Shown one piece after another: positions 1 to 18,349 of a stretch of 22,556 nt of DNA. Source of the DNA: a virus. The notes beneath the pieces are model-generated. The model had not been told where the DNA came from and made no database searches. It was given only the letters and a program-made list of their open reading frames with translations. The stretch lies in the IMG/VR virus record IMGVR_UViG_3300022913_000009, positions 1 through 22,556 of that record, one strand, 5' to 3'. Position numbers and translations under genes: made by a program. The stretch's first letter is position 1. Every line of letters starts with the position of its first letter.

Positions 1-173
1 AAGCGGGCCTTGCCGTTCATCGTCGTAATCGTTCCTATGGCAAGCCACAGATCGAAGTCATCCTGGTACCTCTTCCAGAACTCCTCCAACTCCGATGGTT
101 TATTGATCCCCTCCTCTGAGGGGTCAGTGTCGATGTCCATGAGGATATAGAGAAACTTAAAAATCTTATCCAT
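1..173 (-). CDS. Small phage protein, 3' part missing at window edge
   Basis: Fifty-seven residues are visible, beginning MDKIFKFLYILMDIDTDPSEE; the reading frame is still open at base 1, so the C-terminus lies outside the window. The ATG is preceded by a strong ribosome binding site (GGAAGGAAGG on the minus strand, bases about 180-190), and the start overlaps the stop of the preceding gene by a few bases, so the two are probably translationally coupled. The visible part is acidic, with aromatic residues in a WKRYQDDFDLWLAIG stretch that could be helical. I do not recognise a family. It is the last visible gene of the unit driven by the promoter at 444-472. Confidence 0.6.
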   Translation of the reverse strand, partial: MDKIFKFLYILMDIDTDPSEEGINKPSELEEFWKRYQDDFDLWLAIGTITTMNGKAR

Positions 174-366
174 GTCTAGCCTTCCTTCCTTTGAACTGCT
201 CCCACCTCCAACGGAGGCGAGAGACCACGCTCTGCTTCGGGTAGTTGTCGGGGTTGTCGGAGCCTTCCAACTCCAGCACCTCGACACGCTTTGCCAGTTC
301 GGCTATCGCAGCCCAGAGGTAATGAACCTCACCTTGTACCTGCTCTGCTACTTCTTGTTCCGTCAT
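166..366 (-). CDS. Small coiled-coil phage protein, 66 aa
   Basis: The protein starts MTEQEVAEQVQGEVHYLWAAI and has an amphipathic helical stretch at about residues 4-34 with heptad-like hydrophobic spacing (VAEQV, LWAAIAELAKRVEVLEL). A basic, tryptophan-containing tail follows (RLRWRWEQFKGRKARHG). This is consistent with a small oligomeric or nucleic-acid-binding protein, but no family is recognised. The ATG follows AAGGAAGGCAGTGCG, a good ribosome binding site. It is the first gene after the promoter at 444-472, and the leader between them folds into a 9-bp hairpin. Its TAA stop overlaps the next start. Confidence 0.65.
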   Translation of the reverse strand: MTEQEVAEQVQGEVHYLWAAIAELAKRVEVLELEGSDNPDNYPKQSVVSRLRWRWEQFKGRKARHG

Positions 367-386
367 CGCACTGCCTTCCTTGTAGT

Positions 387-434
387 GAGGAGGGGCACCC
401 GCCAGTAGCCCGCCAATGGGGGCAACCCCTCCTC
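387..434 (-). promoter_or_regulatory. 5' leader hairpin, 9-bp perfect stem
   Basis: Bases 387-395 (GAGGAGGGG) are the perfect complement of 426-434 (CCCCTCCTC). The 30-base interior can itself form a GCCC/GGGC stem. The structure sits at the predicted 5' end of the transcript from the 444-472 promoter, with the ribosome binding site of the 66-aa gene just downstream. A role in protecting the mRNA 5' end or controlling translation is inferred. There is no U-tract, so it is not a terminator. Confidence 0.55.
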
Positions 435-443
435 TGTTTCTAT

Positions 444-472
444 GTTCTAGCCTACCGATACTACCATGTCAA
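444..472 (-). promoter_or_regulatory. Sigma70-type promoter, leftward
   Basis: On the minus strand a perfect -35 box TTGACA (472-467) is followed by a 17-base spacer and the -10 box TAGAAC (449-444, four of six consensus bases). The predicted transcription start is about 437, directly before the hairpin at 434-387. It lies in the only sizeable gap in the left block, between the 119-aa and 66-aa genes. Confidence 0.55.
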
Positions 473-478
473 TAGAAT

Positions 479-838
479 CTATTCCACCAACCCCTGCCCT
501 TCCCTGCCGCCTCCAGTCTTTCCCCATAGTGGAGAGAGGGGGGAGGGGTCAGCGTCTGTCTCCGTGGACGCTGGACCCCTTCTCGACCTGAAGAACCCCT
601 CCCTCCAGATCTTATTGAATCTTTCCGCATAGAATCTGCAATGGTTATTGTTGATGCGGTACTCGCCTCCACCTGCCTCCGTCTCCCACCTGACCCGCTC
701 CATCACGGCCTTCGCTCCGTAATGCTCGAAGCCTTCCCGGATCTTCTGCCGTGAGAACTTTACGAAAAGCTCCCAGACCTCAGGGTGAGCAGCATGGAAT
801 CGCTGACAGGCCAGACGCATCTGCTCCGTGCGGGTCAT
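479..838 (-). CDS. Conserved small phage protein, 119 aa
   Basis: The first 80 or so residues resemble a phage family I know only as conserved hypothetical: a FHAAHPEVWELFVKFSRQ opening, then GFEHYGAKAVMERVRWET, then YRINNNHCRFYAERF. These give an alternating helical pattern with conserved aromatic and asparagine residues. The last 35 residues (after FFRSRR) are low in complexity, rich in P, G, S and E, and are encoded over a strong inverted repeat at 545-579. This tail may be an extension not shared by relatives. The start ATG overlaps the stop of the 62-aa gene (ATGA), with GGAAGAGGGAGGGG just upstream. The function is unknown. Confidence 0.75.
   Translation of the reverse strand: MTRTEQMRLACQRFHAAHPEVWELFVKFSRQKIREGFEHYGAKAVMERVRWETEAGGGEYRINNNHCRFYAERFNKIWREGFFRSRRGPASTETDADPSPLSPLWGKTGGGREGQGLVE
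545..579. repeat. 12-bp inverted repeat inside 3' end of gene
   Basis: GGGGTCAGCGTC (545-556) can pair with GACGCTGGACCCC (567-579), giving 12 base pairs with one bulged base and a 10-base loop. It lies inside the low-complexity C-terminal coding part of the 119-aa gene. No clear U-tract follows on the minus strand, so intrinsic termination is not well supported. Confidence 0.5.
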
Positions 839-1023
839 GCCCCTCCCTCTTCCAGTGCAATCATTCTATCCAAGATAAAACAATCCAATTTCGTATACTG
901 AGTCAGGGTAAAGATGCCATTGTTCCAGCAGTTGGCGTAACTCTTATCCAGTTTCCTGAGATCATCGAGCGTTGCCGCCTTTTCTATCTTAGCCCTTGCA
1001 GATGTGTAGTCGTCACTCATCAT
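835..1023 (-). CDS. Small hypothetical protein, 62 aa
   Basis: The protein reads MMSDDYTSARAKIEKAATLDD at its start and then a helical, tyrosine- and leucine-containing stretch (LRKLDKSYANCWNNGIFTLTQYTKLDCFILDRMIALEEGG). It contains two cysteines, at about residues 33 and 48. No family is recognised. Either of two adjacent ATGs (1023 or 1020) could start it; both follow AGAGGGGGAGGA. The start overlaps the stop of the upstream 97-aa gene and the stop overlaps the next start, so it sits in a coupled string of three genes. Confidence 0.65.
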   Translation of the reverse strand: MMSDDYTSARAKIEKAATLDDLRKLDKSYANCWNNGIFTLTQYTKLDCFILDRMIALEEGGA

Positions 1024-1313
1024 TCCTCCCCCTCTGCTATGAATACGATGCGAACTTCTGCCACTCGACCCGCTCTACGCTTCACCTCCACCGGGTACTT
1101 TCCATCCCCCCATCCCGTACTCACCGCAACCCCTACCCCCTTACCTAGAGGAGCAGAGGTGCCGCTACCCTCGTGCAAGGCATCGACAAACTCGCCCCAG
1201 TCCTTGACTCTGCAGGTCGCCTCATCGCCCAGCACATAGCAGGGATCGCCAAGCCAGCAAAGTCCGGCATCCACATAGATGCATCCGATTGTTTCCCATT
1301 GCGGATCACTCAT
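1020..1313 (-). CDS. Conserved phage protein with GDPCY and GDGxYPV motifs, 97 aa
   Basis: The sequence has motifs I associate with a recurrent small phage protein: IYVDAGLCWLGDPCYVLGD at residues about 12-30, GVGVAVSTGWGDGKYPVEVKR near 60-80, then RVAEVRIVFIAE. The pattern suggests an all-beta fold, and family resemblance to DUF4241-like proteins is possible but not certain. No catalytic function can be assigned. The ATG lies inside the last codons of the upstream 79-aa gene (overlap of 4 bases) with GGGAAGTGGG upstream, and its TGA overlaps the start of the 62-aa gene. Confidence 0.75.
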   Translation of the reverse strand: MSDPQWETIGCIYVDAGLCWLGDPCYVLGDEATCRVKDWGEFVDALHEGSGTSAPLGKGVGVAVSTGWGDGKYPVEVKRRAGRVAEVRIVFIAEGEE

Positions 1314-1549
1314 CGCACGCCCACTTCCCGCAGTGCTGCCTCCAGTGCCGCCAAACCTCCCCCGTTGGCGGATGACTGGAATACAATCCCCCCACCGTAT
1401 CGCTTGCCCCGGTATCGCTTCCCCCCTTGCCTCTTGGCAAGGGCGATGGCTTCCTCAATCGTGCTGGCGATGGCTAGGTAGTGGCATACCCATCGCCCGT
1501 TTCCGTTGATGTCATTCTTGATGGGGGTCCATCCAAATGCTGCCTTCAT
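1310..1549 (-). CDS. Conserved small phage protein (INGNGRWVCHYL / GGGIVFQS), 79 aa
   Basis: The sequence carries two blocks that recur in many phage small proteins: NDINGNGRWVCHYLAIAS (about residues 13-30) and KRYGGGIVFQSS (about 50-61), with an alanine-rich helix between them (TIEEAIALAKRQGGKRYRG). The family has no known function that I can name. The ATG is preceded by GGAAGGCGGACAGC, which follows directly after a GCCC-GGAA-GGGC hairpin. Its stop overlaps the next ATG. Confidence 0.72.
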   Translation of the reverse strand: MKAAFGWTPIKNDINGNGRWVCHYLAIASTIEEAIALAKRQGGKRYRGKRYGGGIVFQSSANGGGLAALEAALREVGVR

Positions 1550-1557
1550 GCTGTCCG

Positions 1558-1575
1558 CCTTCCGCCCTTCCGGGC
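1558..1575 (-). promoter_or_regulatory. Hairpin-RBS cassette before the 79-aa gene
   Basis: On the minus strand GCCC-GGAA-GGGC (1575-1564) forms a 4-bp stem with a GGAA tetraloop and is immediately followed by GGAAGG (1563-1558). The first base of the hairpin overlaps the TAG stop of the upstream gene. Confidence 0.6.
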
Positions 1576-1868
1576 TAGTTTTGTACTAATTCCGCTGCCT
1601 TCAAAGTTACTGCCATGTTGCCGTGAGCCATCGAGACCCTGCCATCGTCGTTGTACCAGACAACCTTGCATCCTTTCAGGTTATCGGGATGTTTGAAAAT
1701 GATGCGGCCTACCTTGCCACCCTTGCCCCAGCCACATTTCACTTCTCGATGTCCGCTCGTTACAATCAGGGTAGTTTCCCCACTACTCATGCAACCGGAG
1801 AACCCCATCGCCACCTTGTCGCCGTGCTTCAGGCTCAAATATAGAGCCAGCAATTCCACTTGTGTCAT
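1575..1868 (-). CDS. Hypothetical small protein, 97 aa
   Basis: The protein begins MTQVELLALYLSLKHGDKVA and continues with predicted beta segments (VAMGFSG, ETTLIVTSG, REVKCGWG, GRIIFKHP, CKVVWYND) and an alanine-rich C-terminal helix. The glycine-rich centre HREVKCGWGKGGKVGRI suggests a small barrel or SH3-like fold. No family is recognised. Start choice is clear: the ATG follows a GCCC-GGAA-GGGC hairpin and AGGAAGGCGACAAG. The stop codon lies at the foot of the next cassette. Confidence 0.7.
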   Translation of the reverse strand: MTQVELLALYLSLKHGDKVAMGFSGCMSSGETTLIVTSGHREVKCGWGKGGKVGRIIFKHPDNLKGCKVVWYNDDGRVSMAHGNMAVTLKAAELVQN

Positions 1869-1875
1869 CTTGTCG

Positions 1876-1894
1876 CCTTCCTGCCCTTCCGGGC
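1876..1894 (-). promoter_or_regulatory. Hairpin-RBS cassette before the 97-aa gene
   Basis: On the minus strand GCCC-GGAA-GGGC (1894-1883) is followed without a gap by AGGAAGG (1882-1876), seven bases before the ATG. The hairpin is identical to that at 1564-1575. Confidence 0.62.
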
Positions 1895-1909
1895 GTGTTG
1901 ATTATCCGT

Positions 1910-2251
1910 CTAGTTGGTTTTGATGTTCTCGATGCCGTTCTGGCATTCTCCTGTGATCCACGACTCGACCTGTACCCGTGCCACGACTACCAGCGGATCG
2001 TCATCATCGCTGAGGAAGGCACTCGTGAAGGTCAGCCCATCGGCAGGGTCAGACTCCCGTGCGATGTGTAGATCCCACGAGAAACCCGGTATCCTTTCCA
2101 GGTGTGACAGCACGATGCTGACTACATCGTTCTGTTCCAAGTCGGCACCTGCCCCCCCTGTACTGTCGTTGAGGATTTCCAGTACCTCGATGGTGCCGGA
2201 GAACTCACGCCCCCCACTGCTGGCTGTGAAGTCGAATAGATTATCCATCAT
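1910..2251 (-). CDS. Hypothetical acidic protein, 113 aa
   Basis: An acidic protein beginning MMDNLFDFTASSGGREFSG, with probable beta strands (GTIEVLEIL, DVVSIVLSHL, WDLHIARES, LTFTSAFLS, PLVVVARVQVESW) and a DDDD run at about residues 84-87. The overall length and strand pattern suggest a single small all-beta domain. I do not recognise it. Two adjacent ATGs (2251 and 2248) overlap the TGA of the upstream 42-aa gene, so it is probably coupled to it. GGAAGGGGGAGA inside the end of that gene serves as the ribosome binding site. Confidence 0.7.
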   Translation of the reverse strand: MMDNLFDFTASSGGREFSGTIEVLEILNDSTGGAGADLEQNDVVSIVLSHLERIPGFSWDLHIARESDPADGLTFTSAFLSDDDDPLVVVARVQVESWITGECQNGIENIKTN

Positions 2252-2376
2252 TCTCCCCCTTCCAATTTGGCAATGACTGCCTGTAGGAAATTGATCATCT
2301 CTTCATCTTCATTGGCCGTCCAGAAGTCCAGTAACTCGTTAGCGTGGTCGATTAGATCCTGTGGATTATCGTACAT
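2248..2376 (-). CDS. Micro-protein, 42 aa
   Basis: A short frame, MYDNPQDLIDHANELLDFWT followed by ANEDEEMINFLQAVIAKLEGGE, fits exactly between two genes. It starts at an ATG seven bases after AGGAAGGC, and its TGA overlaps the ATG of the next gene. The composition is acidic and almost fully helical, with leucines and isoleucines on one face. It could be a small binding or inhibitory protein, but nothing in the sequence tells which partner. The tight fit and the hairpin-RBS cassette upstream are the reasons for calling it a gene. Confidence 0.65.
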   Translation of the reverse strand: MYDNPQDLIDHANELLDFWTANEDEEMINFLQAVIAKLEGGE

Positions 2377-2383
2377 ATCGTTG

Positions 2384-2402
2384 CCTTCCTGCCCGTGTGG
2401 GC
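2384..2402 (-). promoter_or_regulatory. Hairpin-RBS cassette before the 42-aa gene
   Basis: On the minus strand GCCC-ACAC-GGGC (2402-2391) is followed directly by AGGAAGG (2390-2384). The same 12-base hairpin occurs again at 2630-2641. Confidence 0.62.
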
Positions 2403-2403
2403 G

Positions 2404-2613
2404 TTATGAAACCTTAGTCACAACTACGCATCCGGCGAAGAAGTCAGGGAAGGTGGCCAGTCTTTTGTGGGCACCTGCCTTGGTGTATCCGAATGCCCTA
2501 TCGGCATGATTGCTGTCCGTGGTCCAGTCACGATCATCACCATGCACGGAACCCCTATAGAAGAGGCCATCCGTTCTCCTGATGTAGTAGTCGAAGATCA
2601 TGTAGTCGCTCAT
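2404..2613 (-). CDS. Small phage protein with YIRRTDGLFYRG motif, 69 aa
   Basis: The protein starts MSDYMIFDYYIRRTDGLFYR and ends GAHKRLATFPDFFAGCVVVT plus KVS. The order (strand, RTDGLFYRG turn, an alanine/tyrosine segment, a GAHKR helix, a C-terminal hydrophobic strand) recurs in many small phage hypothetical proteins, as far as I remember. No function is known to me. The ATG is set by an AGGAAGGCAGGACAG ribosome binding region next to a hairpin. The TAA stop is followed by the cassette of the next gene. Confidence 0.7.
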   Translation of the reverse strand: MSDYMIFDYYIRRTDGLFYRGSVHGDDRDWTTDSNHADRAFGYTKAGAHKRLATFPDFFAGCVVVTKVS

Positions 2614-2622
2614 TCTGTCCTG

Positions 2623-2641
2623 CCTTCCTGCCCGTGTGGGC
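2623..2641 (-). promoter_or_regulatory. Hairpin-RBS cassette before the 69-aa gene
   Basis: GCCC-ACAC-GGGC (minus strand, 2641-2630) followed by AGGAAGG (2629-2623). Across the hairpin, binding site and GCA that follows, it is identical to the cassette at 2384-2402. Confidence 0.62.
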
Positions 2642-2643
2642 TG

Positions 2644-2790
2644 TTAGTAGTTCTCGACTAGGTACGCCCGTACAACTTCATCGCTTGCCCGGTTTGCCAG
2701 TAATTCTCGCAAGCCTTCATCCTCATCAATGAGGATGCCGGGGTCGAGATTCAATTCCCCGCACAATATGGTGAATGATAATCTTGTCAT
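2644..2790 (-). CDS. Micro-protein, 48 aa
   Basis: Acidic protein beginning MTRLSFTILCGELNLDPGIL and ending RASDEVVRAYLVENY. The frame is open upstream to an ATG at 2889, but that would read through the hairpin and the neighbouring gene. The ATG at 2790 is preferred because AGGAAGGCAGGACA lies just upstream at normal spacing. LNLDPGILIDEDEGLRELL resembles a helix-turn-helix-length helical pair, but it is too short and acidic to claim DNA binding. Function unknown. Confidence 0.65.
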   Translation of the reverse strand: MTRLSFTILCGELNLDPGILIDEDEGLRELLANRASDEVVRAYLVENY

Positions 2791-2797
2791 TGTCCTG

Positions 2798-2817
2798 CCT
2801 TCCTGCCCGTTGGGGGC
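2798..2817 (-). promoter_or_regulatory. Hairpin-RBS cassette before the 48-aa gene
   Basis: On the minus strand GCCC-CCAAC-GGGC (2817-2805) forms a 4-bp stem with a 5-base loop and is followed directly by AGGAAGG (2804-2798). The loop differs from the other cassettes while the stem is kept. Confidence 0.58.
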
Positions 2818-2818
2818 G

Positions 2819-3118
2819 TTAGTAACTGCGATGGGTACTGGCGATTGTGCCGGGTTCCATCGGTTGAGTTTGGTGATGAGTGAAAGCATCCGCCGCTAGT
2901 GCGATAAGAGCAGATCCCGCATCAGGGTAGACATCCGGAAAGATAGGCTTCCCATCGGAGTCTTCGATGTCGATGTCCACTAATTCGCAAGTATCGAATC
3001 CGGTTGGCTGTACTGCGATGATGATCGCATCAGCGGCTGCCGGGATACTGTGACATGGCCACGATGCTTTGAAAGCATCGATGGTTGCCCTGCAGATGGT
3101 GATGATAAGTAACTCCAT
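2819..3118 (-). CDS. Hypothetical protein, 99 aa
   Basis: The N-terminus MELLIITICRATIDAFKASW is hydrophobic and could be a strand-helix unit. It is followed by DAIIIAVQPTGFDTCELVDIDIEDSDGKPIF and an alanine-rich segment, then a polar tail with TQPMEPGTIASTHRSY. No signal peptide pattern with a clear cleavage site is seen. The start has GCAGGAAGGCAGGACAATA upstream. Here the intergenic space is only 18 bases and the usual GCCC/GGGC hairpin is missing. Function unknown. Confidence 0.65.
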   Translation of the reverse strand: MELLIITICRATIDAFKASWPCHSIPAAADAIIIAVQPTGFDTCELVDIDIEDSDGKPIFPDVYPDAGSALIALAADAFTHHQTQPMEPGTIASTHRSY

Positions 3119-3136
3119 TATTGTCCTGCCTTCCTG

Positions 3137-3499
3137 CTATATGGTGAAAAAGCTGTCTGTGTTGAAAAACGCCATCGCACTGCCTTTGTACACGGTGCCA
3201 TCGGCCATCGTGAAGTCACGACAGCGATGTGGATTCAAGTGAATCTCCCGCTGTCCTGTGTCCCGCTGTCCGGTGCTGACAAGGGTGCCTTTGATTCTCG
3301 CATACACCTCACGGTGTCCCTTGCTGAGAATGCGACGATGGCCACCGGGTGCCACTAGTGGTTTGCAATCTCGCAAGACAACATGGTCCACATTACAGAC
3401 AACCTTACCGCTGACCTTTATCGACCATCTAGGCTTGCCCTGTTTGACATTGTTTAGGTTCATATGAACCGTCACAACTGTTCCGGGTTTCGGTGTCAT
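3137..3499 (-). CDS. Conserved phage protein, first gene of leftward unit, 120 aa
   Basis: The sequence contains a string of motifs I have seen in conserved hypothetical phage proteins: VTVHMNLNNVKQGKPRWSIK (about residues 9-28), GKVVCNVDHVVLRDCKPLV (32-50), APGGHRRILSKGHREVYARI (51-70) and KGTLVS. This looks like a small beta-rich domain, possibly nucleic-acid-binding given its basic centre, but that is inference. The ATG at 3499 follows GGAAGGCAGGTACAGA. It is the first gene after the promoter at 3540-3568, and a 6-bp hairpin separates the predicted RNA 5' end from the ribosome binding site. Confidence 0.72.
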   Translation of the reverse strand: MTPKPGTVVTVHMNLNNVKQGKPRWSIKVSGKVVCNVDHVVLRDCKPLVAPGGHRRILSKGHREVYARIKGTLVSTGQRDTGQREIHLNPHRCRDFTMADGTVYKGSAMAFFNTDSFFTI

Positions 3500-3509
3500 T
3501 CTGTACCTG

Positions 3510-3531
3510 CCTTCCGTGGCACCATTGCCAC
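3510..3531 (-). promoter_or_regulatory. 5'-end hairpin plus RBS
   Basis: On the minus strand GTGGCA-ATGG-TGCCAC (3531-3516) is a perfect 6-bp stem with a tetraloop, followed immediately by GGAAGG (3515-3510). The predicted transcription start (about 3533) is within two bases of the hairpin, so the stem would form the very 5' end of the mRNA. Confidence 0.62.
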
Positions 3532-3539
3532 TACCACAA

Positions 3540-3568
3540 GGTATACACGGTATCCCCTACCCCGTCAA
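3540..3568 (-). promoter_or_regulatory. Sigma70-type promoter, leftward
   Basis: On the minus strand the -35 box TTGACG (3568-3563, five of six consensus bases) is separated by exactly 17 bases from the -10 box TATACC (3545-3540, four of six). The predicted start is near 3533. It sits just upstream of the 120-aa gene and downstream of the terminator at 3878-3928, as expected for the start of a separate unit. Confidence 0.65.
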
Positions 3569-3877
3569 CCTAGTCTATCAGATTCAATCCAATCTACCTG
3601 TGAACCTGCTGTATCGGGACAGGGGAACCCGTGCAGTGGTCAAGGTCGGCATGGTCGGATGTCGTTCCGGGAAGGGGTGCCGTCACTGTGTCAATATCGC
3701 ACACTTGGAAGTTTGAACCGGGTGCCGGGGTCGAATCGGCTGCAATCTCCGGCTCGAGGTGCTGTTGCCGACTGGCAGGGGGGGGAGGGGGAGGGGGGGG
3801 CTGCCGGGGGGGGGTGTATCCCGCCTTATACATTTTCCCAGAATAGCGTCCTGCGGTGGTTCTGTGGCTATTTGGCT
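3569..3877. other. Intergenic spacer with G-quadruplex-type tract; no convincing gene
   Basis: This stretch lies between the intrinsic terminator and the 3540-3568 promoter. Open frames of 60-80 codons exist on both strands, but none has a ribosome binding site or a recognisable product, and the minus-strand ones run through a proline run created by the G/C tract. The plus strand holds G8, G5, G8 and G9 runs at 3778-3814. I see no RNA gene here, although an unrecognised small RNA cannot be excluded. Confidence 0.6.
3778..3814 (+). repeat. G-tract cluster (G8-A-G5-A-G8-CTGCC-G9)
   Basis: Four long guanine runs separated by one or five bases satisfy the pattern for an intramolecular G-quadruplex on the plus strand. 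The plus strand is the template for leftward transcription, so the structure would lie in the path of any polymerase passing the terminator at 3878-3928. Run lengths may carry sequencing or assembly error. Confidence 0.6.
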
Positions 3878-3928
3878 AAAAAGAGAACCGGACACCCGCT
3901 GATGTGGAAGGCGGTGGGTATCCGGTTC
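3878..3928 (-). terminator. Rho-independent terminator, leftward
   Basis: On the minus strand GAACCGGATACCC (3928 leftward) pairs with GGGTGTCCGGTTC ending at 3885. That gives 13 pairs including one G-U, with a further GC/GC pair and an 11-base loop inside. TCTTTTT (3884-3878) follows directly. It lies 45 bases past the stop of the 23-aa gene and closes the unit that begins near 6279. Confidence 0.82.
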
Positions 3929-3973
3929 AAGGAAGGCCGAGATGTTGGTATGGCTATTAGCGGAGTCTAATGG

Positions 3974-4045
3974 CTATTTCTTCTTAGGTTTCTTCTTCTT
4001 AGGTCTGCCGACTTGGCTTCCGTAGGTGCCTGGTCCGTTTGGCAT
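3974..4045 (-). CDS. Basic micro-protein MPNGPGTYGSQVGRPKKK type, 23 aa
   Basis: A 23-residue frame reads MPNGPGTYGSQVGRPKKKKP plus KKK and stops at TAG. It follows AGGAGAAGTTAT, a good ribosome binding site at proper spacing. Very similar peptides (a G-TYGS--GRP core followed by lysines) occur in many phage genomes, from memory, and are usually unannotated because of their size. The lysine-rich tail suggests nucleic-acid or membrane contact, but its role is not known. It is the last gene before the terminator at 3878-3928. The conserved core makes chance occurrence unlikely. Confidence 0.75.
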   Translation of the reverse strand: MPNGPGTYGSQVGRPKKKKPKKK

Positions 4046-4061
4046 ATAACTTCTCCTGTGG

Positions 4062-4142
4062 TTAGTGGCTGCTGCAGGTGCAGCTGCACCACATCACTTT
4101 TTTTAATTTGAGTAGGTTGTTCAGCAGGTCTGCTTTCGGCAA
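4062..4142 (-). CDS. CxCxC-tailed micro-protein, 26 aa (possibly 59 aa)
   Basis: With a TTG start at 4142 (GGGAG four bases upstream) the product is a leucine- and lysine-rich helix (PKADLLNNLLKLKKV) ending in MWCSCTCSSH, with three cysteines in a CxCxC array that could bind a metal. The frame stays open further upstream to a GTG at 4241, which would give 59 residues, but that extension passes through A8 and two G7 runs (encoding KKRGGRGG) and has no good ribosome binding site. The stop lies 16 bases before the start of the 23-aa gene. No family is recognised; a chance frame is possible. Confidence 0.45.
   Translation of the reverse strand: MPKADLLNNLLKLKKVMWCSCTCSSH
4077..4090. repeat. Perfect 14-bp palindrome
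   Basis: GGTGCAGCTGCACC reads the same on both strands and lies inside the codons for the CxCxC tail of the micro-protein. It could be an operator-like site or a tight RNA stem without a loop, but nothing else supports either role. Confidence 0.5.
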
Positions 4143-4324
4143 CTTACTCCCTAGATTGTGGTAGATCCTTTGGTGCTGGTCAAAACCCCCCCTACCCCCC
4201 CTTTTTTTTATGGGGGAATAGCGGTGGATTGTTGCCAGCACTGCTCTTGCGGTTGTTCACCCTGAGTTGTTGGTGAGTCCTTCGTATGCTGGGTGCCGAA
4301 GACCCTAAACTTGGCACCGACAGA

Positions 4325-5164: not shown

Positions 5165-5682
5165 GTCTTGATTCCCCTTTTTGTGAGATAGGGCAGGATT
5201 ATCTCGATTGCCGCTCCTTCTCCCCATGTCCCAAACAGCGTGTTCAGTGCCATGCAGATGATTCGGCAGTTCTCTTTCGTGTACCCTAGTTCTGGAATGA
5301 TTCTATCAATAGTGGGGGTTCGTGGGGAGAGTTGGCCCGACTTGGATTGAAGGTCAAAGGGCACTCCTGAGGCTTCACAGGTTCCAAGTTGGATTCTTTT
5401 TTTGACCCATTCGATATCTAGCCCGAACTCCATAGCCTTGAGTTTGGCTCTCCTTTTTGCCCCATGAAGGAGACGCAAAGACCTGTGCTGGATATTCGTC
5501 CTGAGCCTTCTCCTGTTGCATATTTTGCAGATTCTCAGGTGTCGGGTCTGGTTGGCCTTCTGGTCCCAGAAGAACTGGAAGTGCTTTTTGTCCAGGGGCA
5601 GGACTTGTTGGCATTGACTACACTGGAGGGTTTCTATGGGTTTGCCTTGAAAGCGGAGAGGGAGGCCAAATGCCGCACCAAT
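5155..5682 (-). CDS. Endonuclease VII/HNH-like nuclease, 175 aa, AUU start
   Basis: Read from ATT at 5682, the product has two CxxC pairs (residues 21/24 and 52/55), the expected zinc-binding frame of recombination endonuclease VII-type proteins. A basic linker (NRRRLRTNIQHRS) follows, then an HNH-like core: CEASGVPFDL near 102-111, SPRTPTIDRI with Asp126, GYTKEN at 133-138 and ALNTLFGTWGE. Such enzymes resolve branched DNA before packaging. No ATG, GTG or TTG lies in frame upstream of the zinc region; the first is a TTG at 5478, which would delete it. GGAGAGGGGGG lies just before ATT, and an in-frame TAA precedes it. The start is inferred. Confidence 0.8.
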   Translation of the reverse strand: MGAAFGLPLRFQGKPIETLQCSQCQQVLPLDKKHFQFFWDQKANQTRHLRICKICNRRRLRTNIQHRSLRLLHGAKRRAKLKAMEFGLDIEWVKKRIQLGTCEASGVPFDLQSKSGQLSPRTPTIDRIIPELGYTKENCRIICMALNTLFGTWGEGAAIEIILPYLTKRGIKTWN

Positions 5683-6330: not shown

Positions 6331-7056
6331 GTGACAATCAGAGTGAAAGACCCCCCCAAGGAACTGAAGGCTCCAGAGAAAGTTGCGAACAAAGTCCTGA
6401 AGAGACTCAAGGACAAGTCTGACGCAGGAGCCATGTGGCTTATGGGGCTGGACCCCATTCGTAAACACCAACTCGTGGACTTTGCCGGACAACTTTCGCA
6501 ACTGGTCCCCATGAGCATGAGCCAATCAACAGAGAAAGAGTTCATCGCTCGACTCGCAAGTGTGGGCCATTACCAGTCGGCAGTGAAGATGTTCAAGAGA
6601 CTGGTGGGGGATATTCAGGGCTGGCTCGGTCCCTACGAGATATGGTGGTCCCATAGGTATTGCCACTACTACACCAAGTACCTGCGAAGGGGACATGACG
6701 AAGAAGAGGCCAGGGGGCTGGTTGCCAAGAAACTCAATGTCGATCTCAATGTACTCCTTTCCCGTGTTTCCCGCAGGGACATCAACACCATTATCAATAT
6801 GCTCTTGCTCAAGGCAGCAGAAGAGTCAGAGGGCCACATCGCTATGAGTGTGGCGATCCGTGCCAGTGAGGGTTCGGTGAAGGACACTGAGTTGTTCTAT
6901 CGCTATGTGAAGCGTAAAGAAGCAGACCTTGGTGGGGATAAGGAACTAGACCCGACCGTGATGACAGAAGAGGAACTGCTAGCCCATATCAAGAAGATGA
7001 AGAAGCAAATGGGAGTGGTGGGCACTTCCGTGACAATGGAGGAGCCAGATGATTAA
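6331..7056 (+). CDS. Probable terminase small subunit, up to 241 aa
   Basis: The call rests mainly on position, directly upstream of the large terminase with only a 56-aa gene between, and on a mostly helical composition. A central segment (RRGHDEEEARGLVAKKLNVD then VLLSRVSRRDINTIINMLL) could be the DNA-binding or oligomerising region. The C-terminus is charged and coiled-coil-like (EEELLAHIKKMKKQM). Start codon choice is poor: GTG at 6331 or GTG at 6343, neither with a good ribosome binding site, and TAG at 6325 blocks any extension. Its role would be to recognise viral DNA and regulate the motor. Its last codons overlap the next ATG. Confidence 0.55.
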   Translation: MTIRVKDPPKELKAPEKVANKVLKRLKDKSDAGAMWLMGLDPIRKHQLVDFAGQLSQLVPMSMSQSTEKEFIARLASVGHYQSAVKMFKRLVGDIQGWLGPYEIWWSHRYCHYYTKYLRRGHDEEEARGLVAKKLNVDLNVLLSRVSRRDINTIINMLLLKAAEESEGHIAMSVAIRASEGSVKDTELFYRYVKRKEADLGGDKELDPTVMTEEELLAHIKKMKKQMGVVGTSVTMEEPDD

Positions 7057-7219
7057 AGAGTGCCCTCGCTGCCAAGGGTCCGGTCGAGGCAAAGGTCGTT
7101 TCCTTATTGTCCATGTTCAGACCACGACATTGCGTGGAGCGAGAGAGTTCAGGCCAATTCGCTCCTGTCGTCAGTTGTCAACCAGGGATAAGCCTTGTGG
7201 CTATTGGGAGTGGTTCTAG
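7049..7219 (+). CDS. CxxC zinc-binding mini-protein, 56 aa
   Basis: The frame reads MIKECPRCQGSGRGKGRFLI and ends RDKPCGYWEWF. Cys5 and Cys8 with the following QGSGRGKG match the CxxCxGxGxG element of DnaJ-type zinc centres. Cys40 and Cys50 (SCRQ..., KPCGYW) could supply the second half, giving a four-cysteine site. The ATG follows GGAGG, overlaps the end of the preceding gene by 8 bases, and its TAG is immediately followed by the ATG of the large terminase. The position between the terminase subunits suggests a packaging accessory role, which is inferred only. Confidence 0.72.
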   Translation: MIKECPRCQGSGRGKGRFLIVHVQTTTLRGAREFRPIRSCRQLSTRDKPCGYWEWF

Positions 7220-15430: not shown

Positions 15431-18349
15431 ATGGCATTGGAAGTTCTTGACCTAAGAGCCGTAGGAGGTTCATCAGATGGTCAGAATACAGGTATTCTCC
15501 ACCTGACTATTGATGCAATCAATGGATCTGCTCCTAACACGCTCTTAGCCGGAGACTTCCTTGTCTTAATGCACTCAGAGGAGCGGCAAAATAATGCGTT
15601 AAACCCTGGCAATGGCAACTCACACATCCTCAATCAAGTCGCAACCTACACTAACTCTTCAGGCACAACTGGTATTACCACCGACTTTCTTGACTTCGGT
15701 TATCTCCGTTCCACTTCCTCTTCCGGTGGCCGACAGGCTGGTGGCCTCTGGGTTCTTCCAATCACGAGTAGCCATGCCCTGACGAATCAACAGCTTTCTT
15801 ATACGGATGTATCTGCCACTGGCGGAGGGAGTTGCCCTAGAACTTTGCGGGTATTTGTCATTCGAGGAGCAGACAATTCAACGGCTACGATCTCGGCGAT
15901 GCAAGCCTCTTGCAAATCATCAATGACAATGATGGGGAAATTGGTCTATCGGCGGTGGAACAAGCCAACGGATAGTTCATGGAACTCAACAGATGTTGGC
16001 GATGAGTTTATGAATGTTTTTTGCTCCACTGTTCGTCGTCGCCAACAAATAGACCCCCCGGCGGCTCCTGCTTCTAGCATTAACAATGTACCAGCGGGCG
16101 GAACTGAGGTGGATACACTCGCCCAAACTTGGCCTACGAGCGGTACGACAAAAGGCGGACATTCTGAAGACAACGCAGCGGCTGCACAGACTGCTTCTTG
16201 GTTCTTCAAGAAATATACTGGCTCAGGTGCGTTCTCTAATATGGATGCAAACTGGTCAACTACTGGGTCTACTTATTATGGATGGGTCAGCACCCCTAGT
16301 ACCCAAAGTCATAACGGCGGCGTTTCGATGTCGCTCTTCTTCAAGGAGGCATCGGGAACCACCGCAGGAACCCCCGTCACTGCCACTGGCTCCTATGCAG
16401 TAACCTCCACTGGAAGCCCGACGACTGCCACGAGTGACTATGCGGTGACTGCTACAGGAACATCAGTTGCGTTATTGAGTTCCTATGATGTCGAAGTAAC
16501 AACAAGTGGCTCGGTGTCTGCCACGGGTGATTACGCAGTTACTTCTGCAGGGACAGCCGTACCCGCAACGGGTGCTTATGCGATCTTGCTTACGGGGTCT
16601 CTGGCAACCGCAACAGGCTCTTACGCAGTTACTTCTGCGGGAACAGCCACAACTGCCACGGGTGCTTATGCAGTTGCCTCGACAGGAACGGTAGAGACCT
16701 CCACAGGTTCCTACGCCGTTACTTCGACAGGAACGGTGACAACAGCAACCGGGTCTTACGCTGTTACCTCGACAGGAACATCAGTTGCGTTATTGAGTTC
16801 CTACGATGTCGAAGCAACAACAAGTGGCACCGTGTCCACGGCCACAGGTTCCTATGCCGTCACCTCTACAGGAACATCAGTTGCCGTATTAAGTTCCTAC
16901 GATGTGTCGTCAACAACCAGCGGCCTTCCGGCAGCCGCCACGGGTGACTATGCGGTGACATCGGTCGGGCCAGTGACAGCCTCGACAGGTGCTTATGCAG
17001 TCACTTCAACGGCTGTTGCCGTTGCTGTATCAAGTTCCTACGATGTTTCTTCGACAACTGCTGGTTCTGCAACAGCAACAGGTTTTTATGCAGTTGTTTC
17101 CGCAGGAACTGCGGTTCCAGCCACAGGTTCTTATGCTGTTGCCTATGCTCCCACTGGTGTAGCAGTTTCGAGTGAGTATGCAGTTGTTGCGGTAGGGACA
17201 GAATCTACAGCAACTAGCACTTACGCCGTTACTTCTCCGGCAACGGCTGTTGCTGTATTAAGTTCCTACGATATCTTTTCGACAACCAGCGGTTCTGTAA
17301 CGGCAACAGGTTTTTATGCAGTTGCAGCAACCGGGTTGCCAGTAGCCGCTGCTGGATCATACGCTGTTGTGTCCGCAGTTATTCCCGTAACCGCAACAGG
17401 GAACTATGCCGTTACAGGTGTCGGCAATGTATCCACGGCTACAAGCACTTACGCAGTCATGGCGACAGGGGATATTGCAACTGCTGTAAGTGACTATGCA
17501 GTTGTCTCTACTGGACCCGCAGTTATAGCAACGGGTAGTTACGATGTCGCTTCAACAACCGCTGGCTCGCTCACTGCTACAGGTTCATACGCTGTTGTGT
17601 CTGCAGGTACAGTCGTTGCGGTATTAAGTTCCTACGATGTCGCTTCAACAACCGCTGGCCTTCCGGCAACATCCATAGGCTCTTATGCAGTTATTATAGA
17701 AGGAACAGAGTCCCGAGTTAATTGCTCTTATGATGTGTCTAACATTTCCTCTGGTGCTGCTTCGGCAGGGGGATCATACGCCGTTATAAGTACGGCCATA
17801 GCAGTTGCGACCACGGGTGCTTATAGGGTTTTGACAACAGGAAGAACTGCTGCGGCCACCGGGTCTTATGTGGTGGATGCGGCTGGAACCGCCACGGCTA
17901 CGGGGTTTTATGCGGTCATATCTACGGGGTCTCCAGTTCCCGCAACGGGTTCCTACGCATTCATTGAAAGTGGAACTGCCGCTACAGCCACAGGCTCCTA
18001 CGCAGTATCGGCCAGTGGGATAGCGTCCACTGCACCAGGAGATTATTCTGTAGGCACATCTGGAGAGGCTTCCGCCACAGGCTTGTATGCAGTAGTAGTG
18101 GAGGGGACTCCGTTAAGTGCTACTGGTTCTTACGGGATCCAAACAGGCAATGAAGTGTCTATTGCTGGGGAATACGGGTTCAACCTTGCGGGCAATACAG
18201 TAACGGTTACTGGTTCCTATGAGGTAACAGGAGTTAATTTTGCGGCTACTCCGGTTGAAGTGTTTAGCGAGTATGCCGTTATGAACTGCTGCCATTTAGG
18301 GATTAAAGCATTCAGGCAGCTTTCAACCTTCCGACAAAGGACAAAATAG
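15431..18349 (+). CDS. Large repeat-containing virion protein, adhesin-like, 972 aa
   Basis: Residues 1 to about 312 form a non-repetitive domain with beta strands (LAGDFLVLMHSEERQ, GGLWVLPITSS, LRVFVIRGAD, STYYGWVS) resembling phage/adhesin sandwich domains. From residue 313 to near 950 about 42 copies of a 15-residue unit follow, consensus TATGSYAVTSTGTxV, each with a central tyrosine. A variant with SSYDVxSTTS spaces some copies by 17. The C-terminus (CCHLGIKAFRQLSTFRQRTK) is cysteine-containing and basic. The role is probably a long fibre or surface decoration. Neighbouring lectin and tail genes support host contact. The ATG lies just after the preceding TGA. Confidence 0.78.
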   Translation: MALEVLDLRAVGGSSDGQNTGILHLTIDAINGSAPNTLLAGDFLVLMHSEERQNNALNPGNGNSHILNQVATYTNSSGTTGITTDFLDFGYLRSTSSSGGRQAGGLWVLPITSSHALTNQQLSYTDVSATGGGSCPRTLRVFVIRGADNSTATISAMQASCKSSMTMMGKLVYRRWNKPTDSSWNSTDVGDEFMNVFCSTVRRRQQIDPPAAPASSINNVPAGGTEVDTLAQTWPTSGTTKGGHSEDNAAAAQTASWFFKKYTGSGAFSNMDANWSTTGSTYYGWVSTPSTQSHNGGVSMSLFFKEASGTTAGTPVTATGSYAVTSTGSPTTATSDYAVTATGTSVALLSSYDVEVTTSGSVSATGDYAVTSAGTAVPATGAYAILLTGSLATATGSYAVTSAGTATTATGAYAVASTGTVETSTGSYAVTSTGTVTTATGSYAVTSTGTSVALLSSYDVEATTSGTVSTATGSYAVTSTGTSVAVLSSYDVSSTTSGLPAAATGDYAVTSVGPVTASTGAYAVTSTAVAVAVSSSYDVSSTTAGSATATGFYAVVSAGTAVPATGSYAVAYAPTGVAVSSEYAVVAVGTESTATSTYAVTSPATAVAVLSSYDIFSTTSGSVTATGFYAVAATGLPVAAAGSYAVVSAVIPVTATGNYAVTGVGNVSTATSTYAVMATGDIATAVSDYAVVSTGPAVIATGSYDVASTTAGSLTATGSYAVVSAGTVVAVLSSYDVASTTAGLPATSIGSYAVIIEGTESRVNCSYDVSNISSGAASAGGSYAVISTAIAVATTGAYRVLTTGRTAAATGSYVVDAAGTATATGFYAVISTGSPVPATGSYAFIESGTAATATGSYAVSASGIASTAPGDYSVGTSGEASATGLYAVVVEGTPLSATGSYGIQTGNEVSIAGEYGFNLAGNTVTVTGSYEVTGVNFAATPVEVFSEYAVMNCCHLGIKAFRQLSTFRQRTK
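16367..18280 (+). repeat. Tandem array of about 42 units of 45 bp within the fibre-like gene
   Basis: The units encode about 15 residues each. Most are diverged at DNA level, but some are nearly identical: bases 16454-16510 and 16772-16828 match at 55 of 57 positions. This points to recent duplication inside the array in addition to older expansion. Confidence 0.85.

Follow-up and report, generated by a model that had tools for sequence, protein, structure and literature searches.

Short hairpins directly upstream of the Shine–Dalgarno sequence of small genes in a virus genome, and their possible role as ribosome-binding site boundaries

Six small genes in the left part of IMG/VR virus record IMGVR_UViG_3300022913_000009 (an uncultured phage, 22.5 kb; the whole stretch of 22,556 nucleotides (nt) was analysed and is called the window here) are each preceded by a perfect hairpin of 4 or 6 bp that lies 0–1 nt 5′ of the Shine–Dalgarno (SD) letters GGAAGG. 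The genes are on the minus strand and start at 1549, 1868, 2376, 2613, 2790, and 3499. From the sequence comparisons below, there is about an even chance that this short RNA hairpin delimits, on the 5′ side, a ribosome-binding site (RBS) that is initiated independently within a polycistronic early-type mRNA. Early operons of phages constantly gain and lose small genes, which raises the question of how newcomers are reliably expressed from a crowded polycistronic message. One simple natural solution would, if true, be a hairpin that remains part of the leader as the flanking genes are exchanged, and the unit would help in calling the start codons of tiny genes.

The hairpin-bearing genes are part of a minus-strand block of small genes, mostly of unassigned function, in the left 3.5 kb; the right side of the window encodes a structural module (terminase, portal, SU10-like capsid, and others). 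Each unit has the order stop codon or promoter, hairpin, SD, and start codon. In the leader of gene 1549 (1547–1575, minus strand, as for all units of the window), GCCC-GGAA-GGGC at 1564–1575 is followed by GGAAGG at 1558–1563 and ATG at 1547–1549, and the hairpin begins within the TAG stop codon of the preceding gene. The leader of gene 1868 (1866–1894) has the same stem and loop at 1883–1894, then A, GGAAGG, and ATG. This order after the hairpin is also found at genes 2376 (2374–2402) and 2613 (2611–2641), both with GCCC-ACAC-GGGC (2391–2402 and 2630–2641), and at gene 2790 (2788–2817) with GCCC-CCAAC-GGGC (2805–2817); a TAA stop codon lies 1, 2, and 1 nt 5′ of these three hairpins, respectively. 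The unit of gene 3499 (3497–3531) has the stem GTGGCA-ATGG-TGCCAC at 3516–3531, GGAAGG at 3510–3515, and ATG. An earlier sequence-only reading had described a 4-bp stem kept at five of these genes with differing loops, and this proved correct. It had also stated that the stem abuts GGAAGG with no gap; the six hairpins are present at these starts, but only those at 1549 and 3499 are gapless, whereas the other four have a single A (GGGC-A-GGAAGG).

We built a covariance model from seven units of the lineage formed by the window and a relative that carries the same operon (IMGVR 3300001683_000060, 37.9 kb; G001). The units of genes 1549, 1868, 2376, 2613, and 2790 score 30.5, 42.2, 40.5, 35.7, and 36.4 bits, respectively, and all strong matches in the window are in the left non-structural block, on the minus strand and directly 5′ of start codons. 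Predicted folds of the individual hairpins are modest (–4.6 to –7.8 kcal/mol).

A chance origin of the stems was rejected on three grounds. A search of the entire window for GCCCN3–6GGGC gives five matches, all of them at these leaders. When the 26 nt 5′ of GGAAGG were shuffled with dinucleotides kept and flush stems of at least 4 bp were counted, an average of 0.22 leaders had such a stem, compared with six of eight in the window, and none of 5000 shuffles reached six. In G001 the count was five of eight leaders versus 0.21 in dinucleotide shuffles. Stems located 0–2 nt from the SD averaged 2.33 per offset versus 0.20 at offsets of 5–29 nt. The hairpins thus withstood the shuffling check that the sequence-only reading had named as a possible refutation.

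The position of the hairpin is also constrained. Among the 11 units of the window and G001, the distance from the 3′ end of the hairpin to the ATG is 14 nt in eight and 16, 16, and 17 nt in the rest. At gene 1549, where the A is missing, the spacer is one nt longer, so this distance is still 14 nt. A flush hairpin is found at 9 of the 12 internal starts that have a gap of at least 25 nt to the preceding gene, versus 0 of 10 with a smaller gap or an overlap (Fisher P = 0.0005); every start that overlaps the preceding gene, or lies 18 nt or less from it, lacks one. The three hairpin-less starts with a gap of at least 25 nt have other stem-loops, which are large at gene 366 and at G001 3527, and a 6-bp stem that includes the stop codon at G001 2755. 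Both the stem and GGAAGGC are missing at genes 2251, 1313, 1023, and 838, which overlap the preceding gene. Gene 1313, without a hairpin in the window, has a G001 homologue that does not overlap and does have a hairpin. Gene 3118 has a leader (3116–3139, minus strand) consisting of a TAG stop codon, C, AGGAAGGC, and ATG without a hairpin; with its gap of 18 nt this exception fits the gap rule. The leader of gene 366 (364–434, minus strand) has a large stem-loop at 387–434 (GAGGAGGGG ... CCCCTCCTC), followed by a 7-nt linker (ACTACAA), GGAAGGC, and ATG. The predicted fold of this leader is –32.8 kcal/mol, and its 48-nt stem-loop is conserved in G001.

Comparison with G001 indicates that the hairpin belongs to the leader and is not tied to the gene, the same leader being found before unrelated genes. 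The two genomes are 97% identical across most of the structural module and mosaic on the left. G001 has five flush hairpins, with loops GGAA (twice), ACC, and TAACCA, plus a GTGGCA/TGCCAC stem; two stand before genes common to the window and three before genes with no counterpart in it. The leader of gene 1549 is identical in G001, yet the downstream gene there is an unrelated open reading frame (ORF). The leader of gene 1868 is kept beside a conserved gene, while the preceding gene and upstream sequence differ. The hairpin of gene 3499 is the same, with one extra C before GGAAGG. The ends of the homology blocks coincide with units in this two-genome comparison: the block 1547–1894 spans the ATG of one unit to the outer base of the next hairpin, and other blocks terminate near 2373 and 3122. 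The G001 contig is also filed as PSPX01000020.1 in a bin named Euryarchaeota archaeon Guaymas_22, which is a candidate host link only; an archaeal 16S was looked for in that bin and none was found, and we draw no conclusion about the host.

After recovering the units of the lineage, the covariance model matched eleven places (E 1.5e-5 to 0.04) in an unrelated phage, IMGVR_UViG_3300043419_002186 (G006; 85.8 kb, 65% GC). This record was originally picked up by pattern scans for the unit, so that one copy was selected and the remaining copies were not. Nine of the eleven matches directly precede open frames of 57–515 amino acids (aa). A geometric scan of one 12.4-kb piece of G006 gave 11 such starts versus 1.5 in shifted controls, and the hairpin-to-ATG distance is 12–15 nt. 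The counts for G001 and G006 do not rest on a crude gene caller that missed some of the small genes. The stems in G006 include GCCC/GGGC, CGCCC/GGGCG, GCCCC/GGGGC, GCGCC/GGCGC, and GCGGC/GCCGC, and its loops include UUCG, UACG, CAAG, and CACG. We aligned G006 units with window units that have 4-nt loops, including the GTGGCA stem; a MAFFT alignment that included the GTGGCA units was misaligned and left unused. All four pairs changed on both sides, with 100% of cells paired, a share that is partly by construction because the G006 rows were chosen as hairpins. The covariation score was 0.618 versus 0.111 in shuffled alignments and at most 0.08 when slid. The informative part of the comparison is that the same position holds differing stems, a feature not seen in the offset control. 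As the units come from two unrelated phages, the result shows conserved pairing within a class of leaders and is not a test of homologous sites. The hairpin itself seems to be under selection, since the arms still pair where the letters differ between phages.

Seven control phage regions (269 kb; parts or all of T4, T7, TM4, HTVC106P, Caelum, and two Manatee Spring phages) gave nothing below E 0.8 with the covariance model, which also found no unit in the records G002–G004. Pattern scans of viral contigs, of viral contigs with the ATG included, and of bacterial genomes gave mostly single chance matches; of 341 scanned loci, those of the window/G001 lineage and of G006 were the only ones to stand out. 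The unit was not enriched in distant relatives of the neighbouring genes (Streptomyces phages).

These data are consistent with a boundary role for the hairpin at the RBS. In the mRNA, it would lie at the 5′ edge of the ribosome during initiation, parting the SD from the preceding cistron, and could shield the SD both from pairing with upstream sequence and from ribosomes that have only just finished the gene before. An identical leader would be supplied to each swapped-in gene, and at transcript 5′ ends the hairpin would double as a protective 5′ stem. We favour this role because the hairpin has a fixed place relative to the AUG, is restricted to uncoupled starts, and preserves its pairing; constant arms around a loop of 3–6 nt are also more readily explained by an RNA hairpin than by a rigid DNA operator.

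Several points weigh against this boundary role. The left block is carried by only two genomes, the window and G001. Within this lineage every GCCC/GGGC pair is invariant, giving zero covariation, so that selection on structure and selection on sequence are not separable there. The leaders of G006 are non-homologous to those of the window, which makes the similarity a shared design and not common descent. The sequence-only reading had seen selection on structure in the window alone, and had proposed a search of relatives with a covariance model; the search did yield the five units of G001 and the matches in G006, where stems differ yet always pair, but no compensatory change within the lineage. 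A 4-bp hairpin alone would also not stop every termination–reinitiation event. The suggestion that the hairpin keeps the binding site open was not borne out: predicted SD accessibility is 0.60 with the hairpin versus 0.53 with its letters shuffled (combined P = 0.10), and this simple explanation is weak because the predicted gain is not significant.

The hairpin might instead be an element for mRNA processing or stability, with a nuclease cutting between the stop codon and the hairpin, which would then protect the new 5′ end, so that each gene would have its own message. We regard this as rather unlikely, although it has precedents: 5′ hairpins stabilise bacterial mRNAs (PMC3997798) and the RiboJ insulator leaves a hairpin before the RBS (PMC6206723). 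It would agree with promoter-like sequences that put possible transcript 5′ ends at two of the stems. TTGACG-N17-TATACC (3540–3568, minus strand) is a weak match to a targeted pattern; a start about 6–8 nt downstream of it would be at the base of the 3499 hairpin, and conservation of its –10 part in G001 is not clear. TTGACA-N17-TAGAAC (444–472, minus strand) is directly 5′ of the 366 stem-loop, with the same element in G001. Evidence that both sites would set the RNA 5′ end at a stem is graded weak because a consensus scan did not list them. The processing explanation is also kept alive by three consecutive gene leaders on the minus strand of G006, where twister-P5-like elements (5268–5340, 6516–6582, and 7127–7194) each precede a tetraloop hairpin flush with the SD. 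They score 36.2, 28.7, and 27.7 bits, under the gathering score of 37.6 (E 2e-5 to 3e-3), and no further such elements were found elsewhere in the G006 record. In the window, however, most stop codons are only 0–2 nt from the hairpin, which leaves no space for a ribozyme; none was found there, with no Rfam match in 1–4300 at E ≤1, and we identified no cleavage motif. Protection of a 5′ end would moreover not need a tight distance between hairpin and ATG. The parallel in the unrelated G006 with its ribozyme-like elements makes the question of processing versus insulation directly testable.

It is improbable that the units act at the DNA level as shared sites of gene-cassette recombination, with the palindrome being incidental or a site for a protein. 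That phage mosaicism involves boundary sequences is an accepted idea (PMC3029335), the homology blocks described above do end at units, and a Sak4-like ATPase gene adjoins the operon in G001. But recombination homology needs neither complementary arms, variable loop lengths, nor a fixed distance to the ATG; the units of G006 have the layout in common and not the whole sequence, and units are missing at overlapping genes. A boundary-sequence role is probably a by-product and not the function. More improbable still is a functionless leader repeat that was duplicated within one operon and retained by recent descent. Such a history would account for the same GCCC/GGGC and SD letters in five of the six window units and for the two pairs with common loops. 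It sits poorly with five different loops (3–6 nt) on an unchanged 8-nt stem, with the unrelated GTGGCA stem, and with the complementary stem variants of G006; orthologous hairpins are also identical between genomes although the DNA 5′ of 1868 has diverged.

Some familiar identities were rejected. On the coding strand, AGGAAGGC comes after the stem and there is no T run, unlike an intrinsic terminator, and an RNA thermometer or SD-sequestering switch does not fit because the SD is not part of the stem in any of the six units but follows it directly on the 3′ side. Rfam gave no match at or above the gathering score in the window, and weak Rfam-type matches in G001 were dismissed because they are not located at units. 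A known parallel is the intercistronic CUUCGG hairpins of phage T4, likewise tiny, stable tetraloop hairpins between phage genes. The loops in the window are not UUCG, and in 50 kb of T4 we found no flush hairpins (with crude gene calls) and nothing significant with the covariance model.

We found no described element with this exact form in the open-access literature, as the sequence-only reading had supposed, but there is a close analogue, the SAS/ESAS of Cluster K mycobacteriophages (PMC3203893), which is the nearest published system. The SAS is a repeated element found just 5′ of the start codons of numerous small non-structural genes that are unrelated to one another; it is a near-invariant 13-mer, GGGATAGGAGCCC, that includes SD letters and may overlap the upstream stop codon (PMC3203893). 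About half of the SAS have an upstream inverted repeat (ESAS) with 17-bp imperfect arms and a spacer of 4–13 bp, and the authors argue against an RNA hairpin (PMC3203893). Like the SAS, the window units are directly 5′ of non-structural gene starts in a single orientation. Unlike it, they read GGGC-A-GGAAGGC and not GGGATAGGAGCCC, and unlike the ESAS their arms are 4–6 bp, perfect, and flush with the SD, with loops of 3–6 nt. It is also complementarity that persists between lineages in the window and G006 units. RiboJ-type insulators (PMC6206723) likewise have a hairpin directly 5′ of the RBS that is thought to expose the RBS or stabilise the message, and G006 combines its hairpins with twister-like ribozymes; by contrast, RiboJ is synthetic and the window is without a ribozyme. 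A resemblance to the 5′-terminal stabilising stem-loops of the ompA/papA type (PMC3997798) is possible at 3499, with a short 5′-end stem, and at 366, with a larger one, whereas most of the units in the window lie between cistrons, in a set position with respect to the start codon. The window shares with the boundary sequences of mosaic phages (PMC3029335) that homology blocks end at the element, but recombination does not explain the complementarity and fixed spacing.

More broadly, a GC mini-hairpin that abuts the SD and keeps a set distance to the AUG might be a general leader module that has arisen or spread in unrelated phages. This is tentative and, on sequence evidence, somewhat unlikely. 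Such a context-independent RBS would allow free cassette swapping, and some copies, as in G006, would be coupled to a self-cleaving ribozyme as a natural counterpart of RiboJ.

We searched for a close cultured relative of the window and found none. ORF 1549 (1310–1549, minus strand) encodes 79 aa assigned to phrog_3164, of unknown function, and ORF 1868 (1575–1868, minus strand) encodes 97 aa, also of unknown function, with 86% identity to its G001 counterpart. The block is headed by ORF 3499 (3137–3499, minus strand), which encodes 120 aa related to mycobacteriophage L5 gp82 (Pfam PF25735) and is 87% identical to its G001 counterpart. The product of gene 2790 is 48 aa. Accessory genes at 1023–1313 and 3140–3499 have homologues in Streptomyces phages (40%) and mycobacteriophages (31–36%), whereas the capsid resembles that of SU10-type phages of other hosts.

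G006 contains 59 copies of a 10-bp palindrome, GAATCGATTC, across coding and non-coding DNA in its 85.8 kb. A reversed control gave 0 copies in G006, and GAATCGATTC is absent from the window and G001; the palindrome looks like a putative genome-wide binding site. In the window, a long G-rich tract at 3779–3815, with runs of up to nine G and a possible G-quadruplex, separates the small-gene block from the rest. The 972-aa ORF at 15431–18349 has several diverged internal repeats (16355–18010), with about 65–81% identity between segments, that differ among relatives.

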